Shown one piece after another: positions 28,853-37,102 of a DNA stretch of 37,102 nucleotides. Source of the stretch: Thermoplasmata archaeon (GTDB lineage: Archaea > Thermoplasmatota > Thermoplasmata > Lutacidiplasmatales > UBA184); contig JAJYEA010000013.1 of assembly GCA_021790425.1 (NCBI GenBank), positions 5,915 to 43,016 on the forward strand. Direction: 5' to 3'. A program made the translations under genes and the position numbers. Each line of letters opens with the position of its first letter. The stretch's first letter is position 1. Under the pieces are notes generated by a model. That model was given only the letters and a program-made list of their open reading frames with translations, had not been told where the DNA came from and made no database searches.

Positions 28853-29242
28853 TCAGTGAGAGGCCGCGAGGGACTTGTACTTTTCGGCCGACAGGAGCCC
28901 TGTCGGCGGCGCGGAAAACTCGATGGCGAGGATCCATCCCTTGCCGTAGGGGTCCTTGTTCACGAGCCCGGGGTCCTTCGTGAGCTCCTCGTTCACGCGG
29001 GCGACCTTACCGTTCGCGGGGGCGTAGACGTCCGCGACCGTCTTGACGGACTCAAGCGTGAGGAGCACCTGCTTCTCGTGGACCGGCTGGCCCACCGCGG
29101 GCAGGGTGACGTAGACCACGTCCGTCAGCTCGGATTGCGCGTGGTCGGTGATTCCCATCGTCAGGACCGAGCCCTCGACCCGGACCCACTCGTGTGTCGC
29201 CGTGTACTGGAGGTTCTCCGGCACCTTCGTGGTCTCGCTCAT
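28853..29242 (-). CDS. gcvH: Glycine cleavage system H protein / lipoyl carrier
   Basis: Small lipoyl-carrying protein of 129 residues. It contains YTATHEWVRVEGSVLTMGIT near the start and LTLESVKTVADVYAPANGKV, with the lipoylated Lys in ESVK. The C-terminal PYGKGWILAIEF and LLSAEKYKSL complete the family. The ATG at 29242 is chosen since it overlaps the ahcY stop (ATGA); an in-frame GTG further up is less likely. No glycine cleavage P, T or L genes are in the window. Confidence 0.9.
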   Translation of the reverse strand: MSETTKVPENLQYTATHEWVRVEGSVLTMGITDHAQSELTDVVYVTLPAVGQPVHEKQVLLTLESVKTVADVYAPANGKVARVNEELTKDPGLVNKDPYGKGWILAIEFSAPPTGLLSAEKYKSLAASH

Positions 29243-30477
29243 GTTCCGCCTCCCCAACTCCGCAGGTACTCCGCCTGTGACGCGGTGAGTACATCAATGT
29301 TCGCCCCGTAGGTGCGGAGCGCGGCCCGGGCGACGAGCTCGTCGATCTCCGGGGGCACGGGGTAGACGGCCGGCGGGAGCTTCGACCCCTCGCGGAGGAG
29401 GTACTCCGCGGAGAGGGCCTGGAGCGAGAAGCTCATGTCCATGATCTCGGCCGGGTGCCCCTGGCCCGCCGCCAGGTTCACGAGCCGCCCCTCCGCGAGG
29501 AGGTAGGCCCGGCGGCCGTCCGCGAACCGGTACTCCTCCACCATGGGGCGCACCGGGCGATGCTCGACGGCGATGCCGCCGAGGTCCTTCTTGTTGATCT
29601 CGACGTCGAAGTGCCCCGAGTTCGCGAGGAGGCAGCCGTCCTTCAGGACCTTGAAGTGCTCCGTGCGGAGCACGTCCGCGCACCCCGTCACCGTGACGAC
29701 CAGGTCCGCGTGCGGGGCGGCGTCGATCATCTTCATCACGCGGAACCCCTCGAGCCGGGCCTCGACCGCCTTCGCGGGGTCGATCTCCGTGACGATGACG
29801 TCGGCCCCGAGGCCCCGGAGCCGGGAGGCCACGCCCTTCCCGCACCAGCCGTAGCCCGCGACGACCGCGGTCTTCCCGGCAATGGTGAGGTTGGTGGCGG
29901 TGAAGATCCCGTCCAGGGTGGACTGGCCGGTGCCGTAACGATTGTCGAAGAGGTGCTTCATGGTCGCGTCGTTCACGTCGATCGCGGGCCAGGGGAGCTT
30001 GCCGTCCTTCTCGAGGGCGCGCAGCCGGACCACCCCCGTGGTGGTCTCCTCCGTGCTCCCGCGGACGCGGGCCGAGCGCTTGACCATCTCCACCACGAGG
30101 TCCGCCCCGTCGTCGATGATGAGGTCGGGCTTGTGGTCGATCATGGCCTCGATGCCGTGCGCGTAGTCCTGGAGGGACTCGCCCTTCTTCGCGAGCGTCG
30201 GGAGGCCCTGCTGGTTCAGGTAGGCGACCACCTCGTCGTCCGTGGTGAGGGGGTTCGAGGCGGCCATGTGCACGTCCCCGCCGGCGGCCTTGAGCGTCAG
30301 CGCGAGGGCCGCGGTCTTCGCCTCGACGTGGAGGACGAGGGAGAGCCGGAGCCCGGTGAAGGGCTTCTCGCGCTCCATGCGGGCGCGTACCTCCTCGAGG
30401 ATGCCCATGTGGGTGCGGACCCACTCGACCTTGGCCTTCCCGGCCAGCACCTGGCGCTCAACCGAGTCCGCCGACAA
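29239..30477 (-). CDS. ahcY: S-adenosylhomocysteine hydrolase (adenosylhomocysteinase)
   Basis: Splits S-adenosylhomocysteine to homocysteine and adenosine, or the related inosyl compound in some archaea, using bound NAD. The 412-residue product has HVEAKTAALALTLKAAGGDV, NPLTTDDEVVAYL, DDGADLV, the substrate/NAD segment LFDNRYGTGQSTLDGI and the NAD Rossmann motif VVAGYGWCGKGVASRLRG. It ends shortly after the IDELVARAALRTYG segment, without the lysine-tyrosine tail of many bacterial and eukaryotic forms, which is usual for archaea. It overlaps SDO1 by 20 bases and gcvH by 4, so this is an operon. Confidence 0.95.
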   Translation of the reverse strand: MSADSVERQVLAGKAKVEWVRTHMGILEEVRARMEREKPFTGLRLSLVLHVEAKTAALALTLKAAGGDVHMAASNPLTTDDEVVAYLNQQGLPTLAKKGESLQDYAHGIEAMIDHKPDLIIDDGADLVVEMVKRSARVRGSTEETTTGVVRLRALEKDGKLPWPAIDVNDATMKHLFDNRYGTGQSTLDGIFTATNLTIAGKTAVVAGYGWCGKGVASRLRGLGADVIVTEIDPAKAVEARLEGFRVMKMIDAAPHADLVVTVTGCADVLRTEHFKVLKDGCLLANSGHFDVEINKKDLGGIAVEHRPVRPMVEEYRFADGRRAYLLAEGRLVNLAAGQGHPAEIMDMSFSLQALSAEYLLREGSKLPPAVYPVPPEIDELVARAALRTYGANIDVLTASQAEYLRSWGGGT

Positions 30478-31162
30478 ACGTCACCTCCACCTGTCCCTTG
30501 GTCTTCGCCCGCAGGCGTTCCTGGAGATCGGTCTGGGCGCCGCCGGGGATGTTGACCGTCCCCGTCCAGCTCCCGTCCGCCCCCCAGTCCTCCTCGACGA
30601 TCTTGCCGAGGGCCTTGATGTCGCCGATGATCTTGGGATAGAGCGCCGCCTTGGTGTGGACGCGGACCTTGACGTGCTCCAGCCGGATGGGCATGATGGG
30701 ACGGAGCTTGTCGAGGGCGTCGGCCGCGAGGCCCTCCACGTCGCGGAAGGGGTCCACGTGGAACTTGGCCTCCTCCAGCGCCGCCGAGATGCGCATCGGC
30801 GGGTGGGGCGCGCCCGTCTGCGGATTGATGGCGTTGCGGGCGATGTAGTCCACGACCTGCCGGCGCTTCTCCTCGGTCATGGCGCGCCGCTGCTCGGTCG
30901 TGACCTGGACCTCGCCCTCGCGGATGATGATCTTCGCGATCGCGAAGACGTCGGTCGTCTGGAACTGCTTCAGGAGGAACTCGTCGGAGATCTTGTCCCC
31001 CTTCTTCGCGTCCTTGTAGATGTGGTCCTGCGCGAGACGCTCGGTGAGGTCGAGGTCCTTCCCGGCCCTGATGTCGGGGACGGCCGCGGGATCGACGAGG
31101 ACCTCGAAGTGGCTGCCGCCCCGCACGAGGCGGGCCACAACGGCGTCCTCCGCCTGGACCAT
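30458..31162 (-). CDS. sdo1: Ribosome maturation protein SDO1 (SBDS family)
   Basis: Releases eIF6 from the large subunit in eukaryotes and is thought to act in late 50S maturation in archaea. The 234-residue product has the N-terminal SBDS domain (VVARLVRGGSHFEVLVDPAA; LDLTERLAQDHIYKDAKKGD), the helical middle with RRAMTEEKRRQVVDYIARNA and HPPMRISAALEEAKF, and a ferredoxin-like C-terminal domain. It follows psmA by zero bases and overlaps ahcY by 20 bases. psmA-SDO1 pairing is ancient; exosome genes that usually come next are absent. Confidence 0.94.
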   Translation of the reverse strand: MVQAEDAVVARLVRGGSHFEVLVDPAAVPDIRAGKDLDLTERLAQDHIYKDAKKGDKISDEFLLKQFQTTDVFAIAKIIIREGEVQVTTEQRRAMTEEKRRQVVDYIARNAINPQTGAPHPPMRISAALEEAKFHVDPFRDVEGLAADALDKLRPIMPIRLEHVKVRVHTKAALYPKIIGDIKALGKIVEEDWGADGSWTGTVNIPGGAQTDLQERLRAKTKGQVEVTFVGGLG

Positions 31163-31909
31163 CTATCCTTTGGTCGGCTTCGCCTGCGAGGGCAGGCGGG
31201 CCACGTACTTCGCGATCTCGTCCGCGGGGAGCCGGCGGAAGCCGCTCTCCGTGTCGATCGTGCAGATCTCGACCGAGGAAAGGTTCCCGGGTTCCTCCAT
31301 CGACTGCTGGAGTCCCTCGAGGGCCAGAAGGATCGCCTCGTCCGCCTCCATGCCGACGCGGTAGCGCTGCTCGAAGAGCTCCATCACCGGGGCGCGGTTG
31401 CCGCCGATCGAGGAGGCCTTGAAGGAGGTCAGCGAGCCGGAGGGGTCGGTCTCGAAGAGGTGGATCCCGGTGTCGTCACATCCCCCGATGAGGAGGGCCG
31501 TGCCGAAGGGGCGGACGCCCCCGAACTGGGTGTACTGCTGCTTGTAGTCGCAGACGGCCCGGACCAGCATCTCGAGGCTGATGGGCTCGTTGTAGGTGAC
31601 GCGGTTGATCTGGCTGGTCAGGCGGGCGTAGTCCACGAGGACCCGGGCGTCGGCGACGAGCCCCGCGGTCGCGGCTCCGATGTGGTCGTCCACCTTGTGG
31701 ATCTTCTCCACCGAGGAGGACTCCGCGAGCTTCGGGTTCGCGATCCGCCGGTCCGCTACGAGGACGACCCCGTCCTTGTAGACGACGCCGGCCGTGGCCG
31801 TGCCGCGGCGCACCGACTCGCGCGCGTACTCCACCTGGAACAACCGTCCGTCAGGAGAGAAGACTGTAATCGCTCGGTCATACGCCATCTGGCCGGGTTG
31901 CATCTCCAC
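31163..31909 (-). CDS. psmA: Proteasome subunit alpha
   Basis: Structural ring subunit of the 20S proteasome. The 248-residue product starts with the family motif QMAYDRAITVFSPDGRLFQ (about residues 7-25), followed by VEYARESVRRGTATAGV, the DRRIANPKLAESSSVEKIHK pattern and the conserved GGVRPFGTALLIGGCD. The start is a GTG at 31909, since a strong Shine-Dalgarno GAGGTGAT lies 5 bases upstream; the ATG at 31903 is an alternative. The catalytic beta subunit is not in the window. It opens an operon of six minus-strand genes. Confidence 0.95.
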   Translation of the reverse strand: MEMQPGQMAYDRAITVFSPDGRLFQVEYARESVRRGTATAGVVYKDGVVLVADRRIANPKLAESSSVEKIHKVDDHIGAATAGLVADARVLVDYARLTSQINRVTYNEPISLEMLVRAVCDYKQQYTQFGGVRPFGTALLIGGCDDTGIHLFETDPSGSLTSFKASSIGGNRAPVMELFEQRYRVGMEADEAILLALEGLQQSMEEPGNLSSVEICTIDTESGFRRLPADEIAKYVARLPSQAKPTKG

Positions 31910-31950
31910 CTTACATCACCTCGACTCGTGCGCGGAGGAGATGAGTCGGA

Positions 31951-31960
31951 CCTAATAAGG
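31951..31960 (-). promoter_or_regulatory. TATA-like element of the psmA operon
   Basis: The minus strand reads CCTTATTAGG, an imperfect palindrome centred about 46 bases before the psmA GTG. Transcription near 31930 would leave a 20-base leader containing the GAGGTGAT ribosome-binding sequence. Confidence 0.5.
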
Positions 31961-31981
31961 AGTGCCCACGGGCGGAGCGCG

Positions 31982-32977
31982 TCACGGTCCCGAAGGGTGG
32001 AGGGGACGCCCGCCCGATGGCGGAGGGGGGGCCCGGCCGTCCGGCCGGAGCTGGAGCGCGGGGAGCGCCCCGGAGCCGGCGAAGTCGCGACGCGCCGCGA
32101 TCGCGGTCTTCCCCGCGAGCGTCCGCGCGACCCGCCCCTTCCGGGGGGCCGGGGCTCCCTGGATGAGGGGGTGGAGGAAGAGGAGACCGTACTTGGGGGG
32201 CGGACCCCCCTCGCGAAGGTGGGCGAAGAACGCCCGCTCCGAGCCCAGCACCTGGACGGTGCTCGCGGGCATGCGGGCCAGGCGCTCGAGGCCCCCGGCC
32301 TTGGCGACCATCCGGGCGGCCAGCAGCGGGCCGAGCACGAGCGACAGGTTGGGGTAGTGGGCCGAGGCCTCCGCCTCCACTCCCTTCTCCATCGCGTCGC
32401 GGGCCTTGCGGAGGTCGAGGTAGAGGGTGGCGAGGGCCGCCCGGCCGGCCTCGACCGGGGAGGCGCTCCCCGCGCCGTCGGCCATCTCCCGCGCGACCTT
32501 CCCGGGCGCGGCCCCGATGCGGTCCAATGCCGCCGGGTCCTCGTCCATCCACCAGTTGACCAGCCGCTCGCCGAGGAGGTTCAGGGCCGACTCCATGTCC
32601 TCGATGGACCGGACGGCCTCCACGGTGGTGATCGAAGGGTCCCGCGCTCCCGCCAGCCGTTCAACGCCGTGCTCGAGCAGGATCTCCCGCTCCCACGAGG
32701 GGTCGATGCCGTAGTCCCGGGAGGACATCCGGGGAAGGAACCCCTCCGCGGGCTCGAGCCCCAGCGGGCGGAGGCGGACGTCCCGGGAGGTGAGGGGGGA
32801 ACGGCCCTCGCGGCGCAGGGTCTCCACGAGGTCGCGTTCCTCCGCACAGATCGCGCCGGACTCCCGGAGCCGCCACCGCTCGCGGATCACCGCGGGGTCG
32901 GTCGGGAAGGGACGGAGGGCCACGACGCGGCCGGCGTCGACCGCGAAGGCCCCGAACCAGCGGGTGACGATCTCCAT
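31982..32977 (-). CDS. nop5: Nop5 (Nop56/58-like) C/D box sRNP protein
   Basis: Core protein of archaeal C/D box sRNPs that guide 2'-O-methylation, where it bridges fibrillarin and L7Ae-bound sRNA. The 331-residue product has a diverged N-terminal domain, a coiled-coil-like middle and a clear NOP domain: YPNLSLVLGPLLAARMVAKA (about residues 208-227), RMPASTVQVLGSERAFFAHL, and the K-turn-binding GLLFLHPLIQGAPAPRKGRV. The tail is short and Pro/Gly-rich without the usual long Lys/Glu C-terminus. No fibrillarin gene is adjacent, although the two often pair. Its start overlaps the SDR stop (TGATG). Confidence 0.88.
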   Translation of the reverse strand: MEIVTRWFGAFAVDAGRVVALRPFPTDPAVIRERWRLRESGAICAEERDLVETLRREGRSPLTSRDVRLRPLGLEPAEGFLPRMSSRDYGIDPSWEREILLEHGVERLAGARDPSITTVEAVRSIEDMESALNLLGERLVNWWMDEDPAALDRIGAAPGKVAREMADGAGSASPVEAGRAALATLYLDLRKARDAMEKGVEAEASAHYPNLSLVLGPLLAARMVAKAGGLERLARMPASTVQVLGSERAFFAHLREGGPPPKYGLLFLHPLIQGAPAPRKGRVARTLAGKTAIAARRDFAGSGALPALQLRPDGRAPPPPSGGRPLHPSGP

Positions 32978-33720
32978 CAGTCCATCCTCAGCCCGCCATT
33001 GACGTGGATGGCCGTGCCCGTGAGGTAGCTTCCGCGCGGGGACGCGAGGAAGGCGATGGCCTCGGCGATGTCCTCGGGCGTTCCCACGCGACCGAGGGGG
33101 ATCGACCGCTCCCGCGCCGCCCGCACGTCCGGGGTGTCCCCGGCGAGGATGGCGGTGTCGATCGAGCCCGGGACCACGACGTTCACCGTGATCGTGGGGG
33201 CCAGCTCGCGCGCGAGCGACTTCGCGAGCCCGAGGAGCCCCGCCTTGCTGGCGGCGTAGTCCGCCCCGTGGGCGGAGCCGTTGTAGGCGAGGATGCTCGA
33301 GACGAAGACGATGCGGGCCCGCGGCGCCTTCCGGAGGAGCGGGAGGAGCTCCCGGGTGAGGAGGTAGGGCCCCCAGAGGTTCGTCATGAGCGTGAAGAGG
33401 AACTCCTCCTCGTCGAGATCGTCCACGGACCGCCGCGGGTACTCCCCCGCGTTGTGGACGAGGACCTCGAGCGAGGGGAACCGGGCCCCGACCTGCTGGA
33501 CGAGGGCCTCCACCTCCTTCTTCATGGTGAGGTCGGCGGCCACGGGGAAGGCCCGGGCCCCGCCCGACGCAAGCTCCTGGACGAGCGCCTCGGCCTCCTC
33601 CTTGTGGGAGCGGTAGTGGACGGCGACCTCGTCCCCCCGGAGCCCGAGGAGCCTCGCGGTCGCGCGTCCGATGCCGGTGCCTGCCCCCGTGACCAGGGCG
33701 TGGTCCCCGCTGGGTTCCAT
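32977..33720 (-). CDS. Short-chain dehydrogenase/reductase (FabG-like)
   Basis: NAD(P)-dependent oxidoreductase of 247 residues. It has the cofactor motif TGAGTGIGRATA (about residues 11-22), NAG at 90-92, the catalytic Ser144 region FVSSILAYNGSAHGADYAAS with Tyr and Lys in YAASKAG, and the C-terminal VNVVVPGSIDTAI and LTGTAIHVNGG typical of FabG-like enzymes. The natural substrate cannot be read from the sequence. A basic residue in the HYRSHKEE region after beta 2 suggests NADPH use. It is divergent from the PKD gene and precedes nop5 on the same strand. Confidence 0.88.
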   Translation of the reverse strand: MEPSGDHALVTGAGTGIGRATARLLGLRGDEVAVHYRSHKEEAEALVQELASGGARAFPVAADLTMKKEVEALVQQVGARFPSLEVLVHNAGEYPRRSVDDLDEEEFLFTLMTNLWGPYLLTRELLPLLRKAPRARIVFVSSILAYNGSAHGADYAASKAGLLGLAKSLARELAPTITVNVVVPGSIDTAILAGDTPDVRAARERSIPLGRVGTPEDIAEAIAFLASPRGSYLTGTAIHVNGGLRMD

Positions 33721-33778: not shown

Positions 33779-33786
33779 TTATATAT
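33779..33786. promoter_or_regulatory. TATA box between the SDR and PKD genes
   Basis: TTATATAT is centred about 21-24 bases before the GTG pair at 33804/33807, so the plus-strand mRNA is likely leaderless. The symmetric core could also direct the minus-strand SDR gene with a leader of about 37 bases. Confidence 0.6.
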
Positions 33787-33803
33787 TTCGACTTCTTGGC
33801 TCC

Positions 33804-36206
33804 GTGGTGGGCCATAGCGTGGGGGAGTCCGTCACGGGCGAGTCTCGCCGGCATCGTTTCCATGCCGTGACGCGCCGGTTCCTTAACGGGCTGGACGATC
33901 ACTCGGAACCGATCCGGCAGACGCTCGTCCTCGGCATGGTCGGGCTGGTCCTCTTCTCGAGCTACGGGCTCTTCGTCCCGTCCTCGCTCCGGTGCGCGCT
34001 TCCGGGCGAGGTAGGGTGCCCGGGCGGGGTCCTCGGGGGACCCCGCATCGTGCACGCGGCGGGGAGCCAGTGGTTCGACATCACGGCCTACGACTACGGC
34101 TTCTGGATCGTGGACACCGTCTCGGGACAGAACGAGTCGAACTCCTGGAACCTCTACGAGGGATACACGATCAACGTCAATGCGACGAGCCTGCCCCCCG
34201 ACTCCTCCGTGGGAGGGGTGAACATGCACGGGATCGGCATCTCGATCTCCGGCGCGGGGACCGTGATGAACCTCGGCGCCCCCGTCGGCTCCTGGGCCTC
34301 GGCGATCTTCACCGCCCCTACCTCCCCCTCGAGCGGGAACGAGATCTACTGCACGATCTACTGCGGTCCGGGCCACTCCTCGCAATACGCCAACGTCGTG
34401 AACGTCGTGGCCCCCCCGATCCTCCCGATCGCGAAGGCCACCGCGACGCCGACCAGCGGGAACTCCCCGTTGACCGTGACCTTCAGCGGCAGTGCCACCA
34501 GCGGGACCCCTCCCTACACCTACTCCTGGAGCTACGGGGACGGCTCCGCGGTGAGCACCGCCCAGAACCCCGTGCACGTCTACAACAGCTCGGGCACCTA
34601 CGCGGCCAAGCTCACGGTGACCGACTCCGCGTCCCAGGTGGGGGCCGCGAGCGTGTCCATCACCGTCACCTCCCCCTCGCCCGTCTCGGCCTCGGCGCAG
34701 GGCACGCCCACGACCGGGTCCGCCCCGCTCACCGTGGCGTTCTCCGGGTCGGGGAGCGGCGGGAGCCCGCCCTACACCTACGCCTGGGCCTTCGGGGACG
34801 GGAGCCTCGGGAGCGGGGCGTCGGCCTCGCACACCTACACGACCGCCGGGTCGTATACCGCCGTGCTCACGGTCTCGGACAGCGCGGGAGGGTCGGCCAC
34901 GGCGAACGTCGCCATCACCGTCACCGGCCCGGCTCCCCCCCTCTCCGTGAACGCGACCGCGAGCCCCTCGTCCGGGGTGGTCCCCCTGACGGTCACGCTG
35001 ACCGCGGTCACCTCGCAGGGCACGGCCCCCTACACCGCGACGTGGAAATTCGGGGACGGCACCTCGGGGACCGGCATGAGCGTCACCCACGTCTACAGCA
35101 CGGCGGGTTCCTACCTCCCCTCCGTCACGGTGACGGACTCGAAGGGGCGCGTGGGGACCGCTTCGACCTCCGTCTCGGCGCAGAGCAACGGCACCGGGCC
35201 TCCCCCGCCCCTCGTCGTCATCGTGACGGCGAACCCCACGCTGGGCGGCACGCCCCTCGCCGTGAACGCCTCGGCGTCGATCTCCGGCGGCACCGGCACC
35301 TACTCGTCGATCCTCTGGAACTTCGGGGACGGGGCGACGGGGTCGGGGAACCCGGTCTCCCACCGCTACACCACCGGCGGCACCTTCTCCCTCTCCGTCA
35401 CGGTGACCGACTCCAAGGGGACGTCGTCGTCCAATTCCACGGTCGTCACCGCGGTCGGCCTCCACCTGATCGCCAACGTGACCCCCACGGTGGGGGACGC
35501 CCCCTACAACGTCACGGGGGCCGCCTCGGTCTACGGCGGCACCGGGCCCTACACGGCCGTGACGTGGGACTGGGGCGACGGGACCACCTCCCAGGGGACC
35601 TCGCTGAACCACACCTACGGCCCGTCGGCCACCGGCTCCCTCACGGTGACCGCATCGGTGACGGACCAGGCGGGCGAGACGGCCTCCCAGGTGCTCTACG
35701 TCCTGGTCGATCCCCCGCTGGCGGTGAACCTGACCGTGAACCTCTCCTCGCACGCCGCCCCCTCCAAGGCGAGCTTCCGCGCCGTCCTCTCGGGAGGAAC
35801 GGGCATCTACTCCTCGAGCCTCTTCTGGAACTTCAGCGACAACGCGACCACCCGGGGGCCGACGACCGAGTCGTACACCTACAACCGGTCGGGAAGCTAC
35901 CTGGTGACCGTGGAGGCGAACGACTCCTCGGGGGCGATCGCCTCCGCCCACCTGTGGGTTAACGTCACTCCCCGGGGTCCCGGGAACACGACCCAGACGG
36001 TTCCCACGTCCGCCACCCCTCCGTCCTGGCTCGGGAACGGCATCGGGGACCCGTCGGACACCAGCCTCGCGCTCCTCCTCGCCATGTCCCTCACCGTGCT
36101 GACCCTCGTCTGGAGAGGCCCCAAGAAGCCGGCCGCGTCCGGCAAGGACGGCGCCGCGTCCCCCTCGGGGCGCCCCGGCGCCACACTGAGGTCGATCCCG
36201 CCGTGA
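33804..36206 (+). CDS. Membrane-anchored protein with CuA-like cupredoxin domain and six PKD domains
   Basis: The 800-residue product has a cytosolic N-terminus (1-37), a membrane helix (about 38-58), and an outer domain (about 88-202) that resembles the soluble domain of cytochrome oxidase subunit II: GVNMHGIGIS with His142, and EIYCTIYCGPGHSSQ with Cys183, Cys187, His191 and Gln194. The spacing C-x3-C-x3-H-x2 is that of CuA sites, but Gln replaces the usual Met ligand. Six PKD repeats follow (about 205-740), each with a W-x-[FYW]-G-D-G/S-D core and H-x-Y. A C-terminal helix (about 752-771) and basic tail anchor it. It could be a copper-binding surface protein. The GTG at 33807 is an alternative start. 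Confidence 0.8.
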   Translation: MVGHSVGESVTGESRRHRFHAVTRRFLNGLDDHSEPIRQTLVLGMVGLVLFSSYGLFVPSSLRCALPGEVGCPGGVLGGPRIVHAAGSQWFDITAYDYGFWIVDTVSGQNESNSWNLYEGYTINVNATSLPPDSSVGGVNMHGIGISISGAGTVMNLGAPVGSWASAIFTAPTSPSSGNEIYCTIYCGPGHSSQYANVVNVVAPPILPIAKATATPTSGNSPLTVTFSGSATSGTPPYTYSWSYGDGSAVSTAQNPVHVYNSSGTYAAKLTVTDSASQVGAASVSITVTSPSPVSASAQGTPTTGSAPLTVAFSGSGSGGSPPYTYAWAFGDGSLGSGASASHTYTTAGSYTAVLTVSDSAGGSATANVAITVTGPAPPLSVNATASPSSGVVPLTVTLTAVTSQGTAPYTATWKFGDGTSGTGMSVTHVYSTAGSYLPSVTVTDSKGRVGTASTSVSAQSNGTGPPPPLVVIVTANPTLGGTPLAVNASASISGGTGTYSSILWNFGDGATGSGNPVSHRYTTGGTFSLSVTVTDSKGTSSSNSTVVTAVGLHLIANVTPTVGDAPYNVTGAASVYGGTGPYTAVTWDWGDGTTSQGTSLNHTYGPSATGSLTVTASVTDQAGETASQVLYVLVDPPLAVNLTVNLSSHAAPSKASFRAVLSGGTGIYSSSLFWNFSDNATTRGPTTESYTYNRSGSYLVTVEANDSSGAIASAHLWVNVTPRGPGNTTQTVPTSATPPSWLGNGIGDPSDTSLALLLAMSLTVLTLVWRGPKKPAASGKDGAASPSGRPGATLRSIPP

Positions 36207-36270: not shown

Positions 36271-37102
36271 ATGATGCCCCCGCCGTTGACGGCCTGCCCG
36301 TGGTGCTTCACCCCGCTCCAGAACTCGGCCTGCCCCGTCTGTCAGGTGGCCTGGGTCCCCTCGGAGCCCTCCCCTCCTCCAGCGGCGCCCGTCCGTCCCC
36401 CGGTGGCCCCGAGGATCGCTCCCCCCGCACGGGCCGGACCCGCGGGAGCGGGCATCCCCCGCGTCGCGGCCCGGCCGGGCGCTCCCCCGCCCCGCATCCC
36501 CCCGAAGTCCCCCCGGAAGCCCGAGAGCGCCGCGAAGAAGTTCGGCCGCAAGGTGCTCCGCCAGTTCCTCCCCGTCCGCCTCGTCTGGATCTTCCTCATC
36601 GCGCTGGCCTACGCCGGCCACCTCCTCGACTCGGCGACCGGGCTCGAGGCGCTCGGCGCGCTCCTGGGGATCGCCGCGGGGGTCGACCTGGCGATCCAGC
36701 TCGGCCGGTTCACCACGGTCCGGGTGCCCGACGCGGCCCTCGCGATCGGCGCGTTCTACCTGGTGCTCGTGCAGCCCGGCGTCCTCACCCTGCCGCTCAT
36801 CGCGGTCCTCGTGGCGGGCATCGTGATCCGCCACGCCGTGCGGCTGAACGGGCATCCCTGGTTCAACCCGACGGCGCTCGGGCTCACGATCGGCTTCTTC
36901 CTCTTCGGCACGCAGGTGCCCTGGGCCGTCGGCAACAGCCCGCTGGACGAGGCCGTCATGATCGTCTTCGGGCTCGTGCTCATCCTCCGCCAGCGGAACA
37001 GCTGGAGGCTCCCCGCCTTCTTCCTCGCCACGGTGGTGCCCCTCCTCATCCTGACGCCGGTCCTCGTCGGGAAGCCGATCGCCCTCAACGAGTCCAACCT
37101 CT
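36271..37102 (+). CDS. Polytopic membrane protein with N-terminal zinc ribbon, possibly NqrB/RnfD-like (truncated by the window end)
   Basis: The 277 visible residues begin with a zinc ribbon (Cys9, Cys12, Cys21, Cys24; CPWCF and CPVCQ), then a 60-residue Pro/Ala/Arg-rich linker, then at least five hydrophobic segments from residue 104 onward. The stretch NGHPWFNPTALGLTIGFFLF (about residues 193-212) recalls the H-x-FNPAA-x-G-L segment of NqrB/RnfD-type subunits of ion-pumping electron-transfer complexes. The flavin-binding Thr motif of RnfD would lie beyond the window. I give this assignment as tentative; a different membrane family is possible. The ATG at 36271 is followed by a second ATG. 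It lies 64 bases after the CuA/PKD gene. Confidence 0.55.
   Translation, partial: MMPPPLTACPWCFTPLQNSACPVCQVAWVPSEPSPPPAAPVRPPVAPRIAPPARAGPAGAGIPRVAARPGAPPPRIPPKSPRKPESAAKKFGRKVLRQFLPVRLVWIFLIALAYAGHLLDSATGLEALGALLGIAAGVDLAIQLGRFTTVRVPDAALAIGAFYLVLVQPGVLTLPLIAVLVAGIVIRHAVRLNGHPWFNPTALGLTIGFFLFGTQVPWAVGNSPLDEAVMIVFGLVLILRQRNSWRLPAFFLATVVPLLILTPVLVGKPIALNESNL

Follow-up and report, generated by a model that had tools for sequence, protein, structure and literature searches.

A CuA-like cupredoxin domain carried by a PKD-repeat membrane protein and encoded next to an RnfD-fold protein in a Thermoplasmata archaeon

To our knowledge, the characterised natural CuA sites are those of cytochrome c oxidase, N2O reductase, a Bacillus NO reductase and PmoD. 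Electron transfer is the job of characterised CuA sites, and neither the axial methionine nor the glutamate side chain is strictly required for the site; the glutamate binds via its backbone carbonyl, which makes the side chain dispensable. The closest case of a CuA site beyond the classic enzymes is PmoD of methane and ammonia oxidisers, a membrane-anchored protein outside oxidase and NosZ whose CuA site is built by a homodimer with the motif Cx7MxHxnC (PMC6189053). The blue copper proteins described from Thermoplasmata are extracellular cupredoxins tied to electron transport, most of them of type 1 and encoded beside oxidase or monooxygenase genes (PMC9287336, PMC9038741). The open-access literature that we searched held no precedent for a CuA domain joined to PKD domains, for a cupredoxin paired with RnfD, or for Thermoplasmata proteins combining PKD and cupredoxin domains.

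The window analysed here, a stretch of 37,102 nucleotides (G000:C7:5915-43016), reaches a contig end in an archaeal genome of 2.5 Mb and 98.6% completeness, for which the Thermoplasmata archaea FK3.bin56 and YF1.bin117 were the closest named relatives found. A sequence-only reading had described the product of the open reading frame 33804-36206 as a CuA-like cupredoxin domain fused to six PKD repeats and a membrane anchor. Translation recovers this frame with H142, C183, C187, H191 and Q194 as described, and Pfam finds six PKD stretches. One anchor had been mentioned, whereas hydropathy gives two membrane segments (residues about 39-60 and 751-773), so that the N-terminal one had been missed. 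The protein, termed CuA-PKD below, thus consists of an N-terminal membrane helix, a C-x7-C linker, the CuA-like cupredoxin domain, six PKD domains and a C-terminal membrane helix, and its only cysteines are C64, C72, C183 and C187. The features of the locus are:

33780..33788, plus strand: TATA-like element TATATATTT, a putative promoter element read from the sequence, about 16-24 bases 5' of the GTG at 33804
33804..36206, plus strand: CuA-PKD protein, 800 aa, GTG start (translation, Pfam, hydropathy)
33921..33977, plus strand: N-terminal membrane helix, residues about 40-58 (hydropathy; helix 2-19 of the model; kept in all homologues)
33990..34028, plus strand: R-C-x7-C-P-G-G linker with Cys64 and Cys72, both invariant in 22 of 22 aligned sequences
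34065..34409, plus strand: CuA-like cupredoxin domain, residues 88-202 (AlphaFold2 model, Foldseek, hhalign against COX2)
34227..34229, plus strand: His142, proposed copper ligand, with Cys183 41 residues further on (invariant, 27/27)
34350..34385, plus strand: ligand loop C183-TIY-C187-GPG-H191-SS-Q194 (conservation across 27 family members)
34416..36023, plus strand: six PKD domains (Pfam PF18911, six stretches)
36054..36122, plus strand: C-terminal membrane helix, residues about 751-773, then a basic tail (hydropathy)
36271..37102, plus strand, running off the contig end: RnfD1, an N-terminal zinc ribbon followed by an RnfD/NqrB-fold membrane protein (match to profile A3, PF03116 in homologues, fold)

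The position of TATATATTT close 5' of the GTG fits a leaderless archaeal start. Beside the CuA-PKD gene, the minus strand at 28853-33720 carries ordinary archaeal genes, encoding a GcvH-like protein, adenosylhomocysteinase, SBDS, a proteasome alpha-like protein, a Nop-domain protein and a short-chain dehydrogenase.

The isolated N-terminal domain had no Pfam match at E values up to 10, PF00116 included, and no real NCBIfam match, and a profile search of the PDB returned CoxII (7deg_B) at an E value of 2.9, which is not significant alone. The fold was therefore assigned by structural and profile-profile comparison. An AlphaFold2 model was built from an alignment of 22 homologues (mean pLDDT 82; mostly near 90 for model residues 50-140), and its top Foldseek matches in the PDB were CuA domains of oxidases, namely 7deg_B (1.3e-7), 2cua_A and 5ndc_B (both 4.2e-7) and 6ptt_A (7.6e-7); NosZ, also proposed for comparison, appeared further down the list. 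In an hhalign comparison, the domain matched COX2 proteins from sister genomes of the same archaeal family with 95.9% probability and an E value of 6e-9. The predicted structure thus upholds the view that the N-terminal domain is a cupredoxin closest to CuA domains, and the C-x3-C-x3-H loop makes CuA a better description than type-1 copper. Two other matches were discarded: an antibody hit from phmmer against the PDB is a chance match, and membership in L-NosZ (NF052460) was rejected since the domain scored 14.1 bits, far short of the 700-bit cut-off (E value 0.012, at the L-NosZ end), and neighbouring propellers also score weakly.

Conservation of the ligands was examined in 27 family members. 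Both histidines (His142 and His191) and Cys187 are invariant (27/27), and Cys183 is missing only from L048 (26/27). When the protein sequence was shuffled 20,000 times, the C-x3-C-x3-H pattern turned up in 8 cases, and its conservation puts the motif beyond chance; moreover, the ligands persist through about 50% sequence divergence in the 22-homologue alignment. Neither of the outcomes that the sequence-only reading had named as fatal to its proposal, a fold other than that of a cupredoxin and a lack of conservation of the Cys and His residues, was thus observed. The window protein departs twice from the CuA consensus. The replacement of the axial Met by Gln194, which had been pointed out, is correct for this protein but does not hold throughout the family, where 20 members have Gln at the axial position, six have Met and one has Leu; the variants are spread across a weakly resolved tree, so that the position has probably changed more than once. 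The second departure had gone unmentioned: the loop reads C-T-I-Y-C, with Ile185 in place of the glutamate of the oxidase C-x-E-x-C. All 12 aligned COX2 proteins from the same archaeal family have both the Met and this Glu.

In L048:9408-10880 (G023:C22) the PKD domains are gone, the first cysteine has become arginine, and the CuA domain runs straight into an RnfD1 that lacks its head. This fusion may be a deletion scar, and we gave it little weight as Rosetta-stone evidence because Cys183, the PKD domains and the start of RnfD1 are all lost. L049:9105-9482 and L050:10248-10625 encode a small single-helix CuA-like protein (CTVPCGPGHSGM) near another cupredoxin-like open reading frame and a membrane protein.

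The N-terminal helix and the C-x7-C motif preceding the domain, neither noted before, bear on how the protein is placed at the membrane. The conservation of the helix and of the motif behind it is unlike that of a cleaved signal peptide. Since about 28 residues separate the end of the helix from the CuA-like domain, the copper end probably lies close to the membrane, which does not support the proposal that the PKD domains act as spacers holding the copper domain away from it. Judged from the sequence, the simplest topology would have two anchors, with the CuA-like domain near the membrane and a PKD chain that extends outwards and then returns; the stalk picture would hold if the N-terminal helix were a cleaved signal peptide after all. 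The linker motif formed by Cys64 and Cys72 is probably a disulfide or a docking element.

CuA-PKD is narrowly distributed. Strong matches were present in 14 of 61 relatives, and searches covering 350 genomes from the class and 390 from the phylum yielded no strong match outside one archaeal family; weak matches elsewhere are COX2-like domains. COX1 was detected in 36 and COX2 in 35 of 37 genomes searched, the window genome having neither. The same genome showed no match to PF00127 or PF06525 (plastocyanin, sulfocyanin), and it encodes CydA, subunit I of cytochrome bd (G000:C4:21944-23230, L115), as the only one of 14 genomes searched. Apparently the terminal oxidase was switched from a heme-copper to a bd type in this organism, although a draft of 98.6% completeness in 153 contigs could miss a gene. 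The lack of a detectable heme-copper oxidase implies a role of CuA-PKD apart from that enzyme, and, if the assembly is right, CuA-PKD has outlived the heme-copper oxidase in the window organism and does not serve to supply it with electrons. CuA-PKD genes are not adjacent to COX1. Three genus-mates have a match to both COX1 and SoxE in one frame of about 1045 aa (G002:C50:46839-48710, G003:C2:30099-31964 and G004:C41:26695-28560; L106, L107), which suggests a sulfocyanin-COX1 fusion.

The gene for RnfD1 lies directly downstream of that for CuA-PKD. Contig G000:C33 continues the truncated frame (328-base overlap with 2 mismatches) and encodes a TPR protein next to it. PF03116 scores above its cut-off in several RnfD1 homologues, and the model of one homologue matched RnfD (8rbq_D, 2.6e-7) and NqrB in Foldseek, followed by urea and ammonium channels. 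Among 27 CuA-PKD copies, three lie at contig ends and were left out; RnfD1 is linked to 20 of the remaining 24 (as the adjacent gene in 12, with one gene between in seven, as a fusion in one), the four others being unlinked paralogues. RnfD1 was found in all 18 genomes that have this type of CuA-PKD and in none of 23 genomes lacking CuA-PKD, while in G001 (64% complete) an unlinked paralogue is the only CuA-PKD. The nominal Fisher p value for this co-occurrence, about 5e-11, is overstated because the genomes are related.

The relationship of RnfD1 to electron-transferring complexes does not extend to their flavin. The loop for covalent FMN attachment in RnfD/NqrB (Thr site) is absent from 16 RnfD1 sequences, and no ApbE was detected in 15 genomes by a search that was positive in 7 of 14 controls. 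Together these absences make a covalent-flavin electron path unlikely, and such a route through RnfD1 was rejected. Among the neighbouring open reading frames scanned there was no Rnf/Nqr family, and hence no sign of a full Rnf or Nqr operon around RnfD1. RnfD1 may instead use a quinone or a non-covalent cofactor, or act in transport. Even with the covalent-flavin site missing, the link to RnfD1 leans towards a redox function rather than copper storage. A further solo RnfD-like protein (RnfD2), in many cases about 440-480 aa long, occurs widely in the archaeal family, also in genomes without CuA-PKD (for example L043:2568-3989, L034:12194-13525 and L036:1172-2503; no ApbE was found in the family genomes searched). 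In or beside several CuA-PKD clusters we also observed two types of Cys-rich membrane protein, GCxxCxPxYL and GACCCxxC, for which no Pfam or NCBIfam family was found (L044:11810-12670, L046:6560-7444, L112:6005-7183; L030:3448-4755, L042:7981-9660, L046:3754-5007).

Taking the sequence comparisons together, we propose that CuA-PKD is a CuA-type electron carrier which works independently of an oxidase at the outer face of the membrane with solo RnfD1, a proposal to which we give an even chance. The membrane-anchored extracellular protein would carry a CuA-type dinuclear copper site in which His142 and His191 hold a pair of coppers bridged by the thiolates of Cys183 and Cys187. Gln in most of the family, and Met or Leu in the remaining members, would tune the weak axial position. 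Beside the membrane, CuA-PKD would act with RnfD1, presumably in physical contact, and electrons might be exchanged between a membrane donor or acceptor, possibly a quinone, and an external or surface partner, with direction and substrate left to conjecture. It is tempting to speculate further that a surface CuA port free of an oxidase, with swapped axial ligands and a flavin-free RnfD-fold partner, was kept after the change from heme-copper to bd oxidase; this fuller scenario is possible but doubtful.

Several points speak against an electron carrier: RnfD1 has no FMN-attachment loop, urea and ammonium channels have the same fold as RnfD1, the Cys-rich proteins would suit copper handling, L048 has lost Cys183, and the domain has neither a Pfam match nor a PDB profile match that is significant alone. 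The domain might instead bind surface copper and either pass it to RnfD1, which would then be a channel or transporter, or simply buffer it. The missing flavin site of RnfD1 is compatible with this, and the GCxxC and GACCCxxC membrane proteins in several clusters keep copper handling alive as an explanation. Two bridging cysteines and two histidines in CuA spacing are, however, typical of electron transfer and not of chaperones, and the usual copper enzymes searched for are missing from the window genome, so that copper demand seems low; we regard copper capture or delivery as rather unlikely. The replacement of both the C-x-E-x-C glutamate and the axial Met in the window protein could also point to a different centre, be it mononuclear copper, another metal or a Cys183-Cys187 redox disulfide. 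This is improbable given that the loop is spaced exactly as in CuA, the two histidines are invariant, Met is kept in 6 of 27 members and the glutamate, a backbone carbonyl ligand, can be replaced.

PKD proteins are abundant in these genomes and L048 has lost one ligand cysteine, as might be expected of an ordinary PKD surface scaffold whose cupredoxin domain is a relict or merely structural; yet ligands that outlast about 50% divergence and the retention of one specific membrane partner make a scaffold quite improbable. Homology of the domain to COX2, finally, might indicate that the protein is a heme-copper oxidase subunit II that has diverged. The sequence-only reading had already denied that the protein is an oxidase subunit, and our data agree: the window genome has no COX1 match, and CuA-PKD-bearing relatives have COX1 together with a separate canonical COX2 that retains Glu and Met. 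An oxidase subunit was rejected on these grounds as extremely unlikely, unless the assembly missed COX1. If the electron-carrier proposal is true, the CuA centre serves electron routes beyond the known enzymes, and RnfD-like proteins without flavin gain a job. The natural variation among Gln, Met and Leu offers a ready series for studying how the axial ligand tunes the site.

By its fold and core ligands, the domain is of the CuA kind; new are the axial swap, the PKD architecture, the pairing with RnfD1 and the independence from an oxidase. With the CuA domain of CoxB (Thermus ba3, 2cua; Aquifex, 7deg_B) it shares the cupredoxin fold, the C-x3-C-x3-H loop, a histidine about 40 residues upstream and a single N-terminal membrane helix. 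It differs from CoxB by having Gln at the axial position (in some members Met or Leu), Ile in place of Glu, six PKD domains, a second anchor and the lack of an oxidase partner. NosZ and L-NosZ (NF052460) likewise have a CuA domain outside an oxidase, but CuA-PKD does not contain a catalytic propeller in the same protein. In contrast to PmoD, its ligands are canonical and lie within one chain. Compared with the Thermoplasmata blue copper proteins, it has a two-Cys CuA loop and an RnfD-like neighbour. Rnf/Nqr-like extracytosolic electron-transfer systems also encode an RnfD/NqrB-fold protein with an extracytosolic redox domain (PMC8238504); in the CuA-PKD locus a copper domain takes the place of the FMN-binding domain, and the NAD-binding domain, flavin loop and ApbE of those systems are absent.
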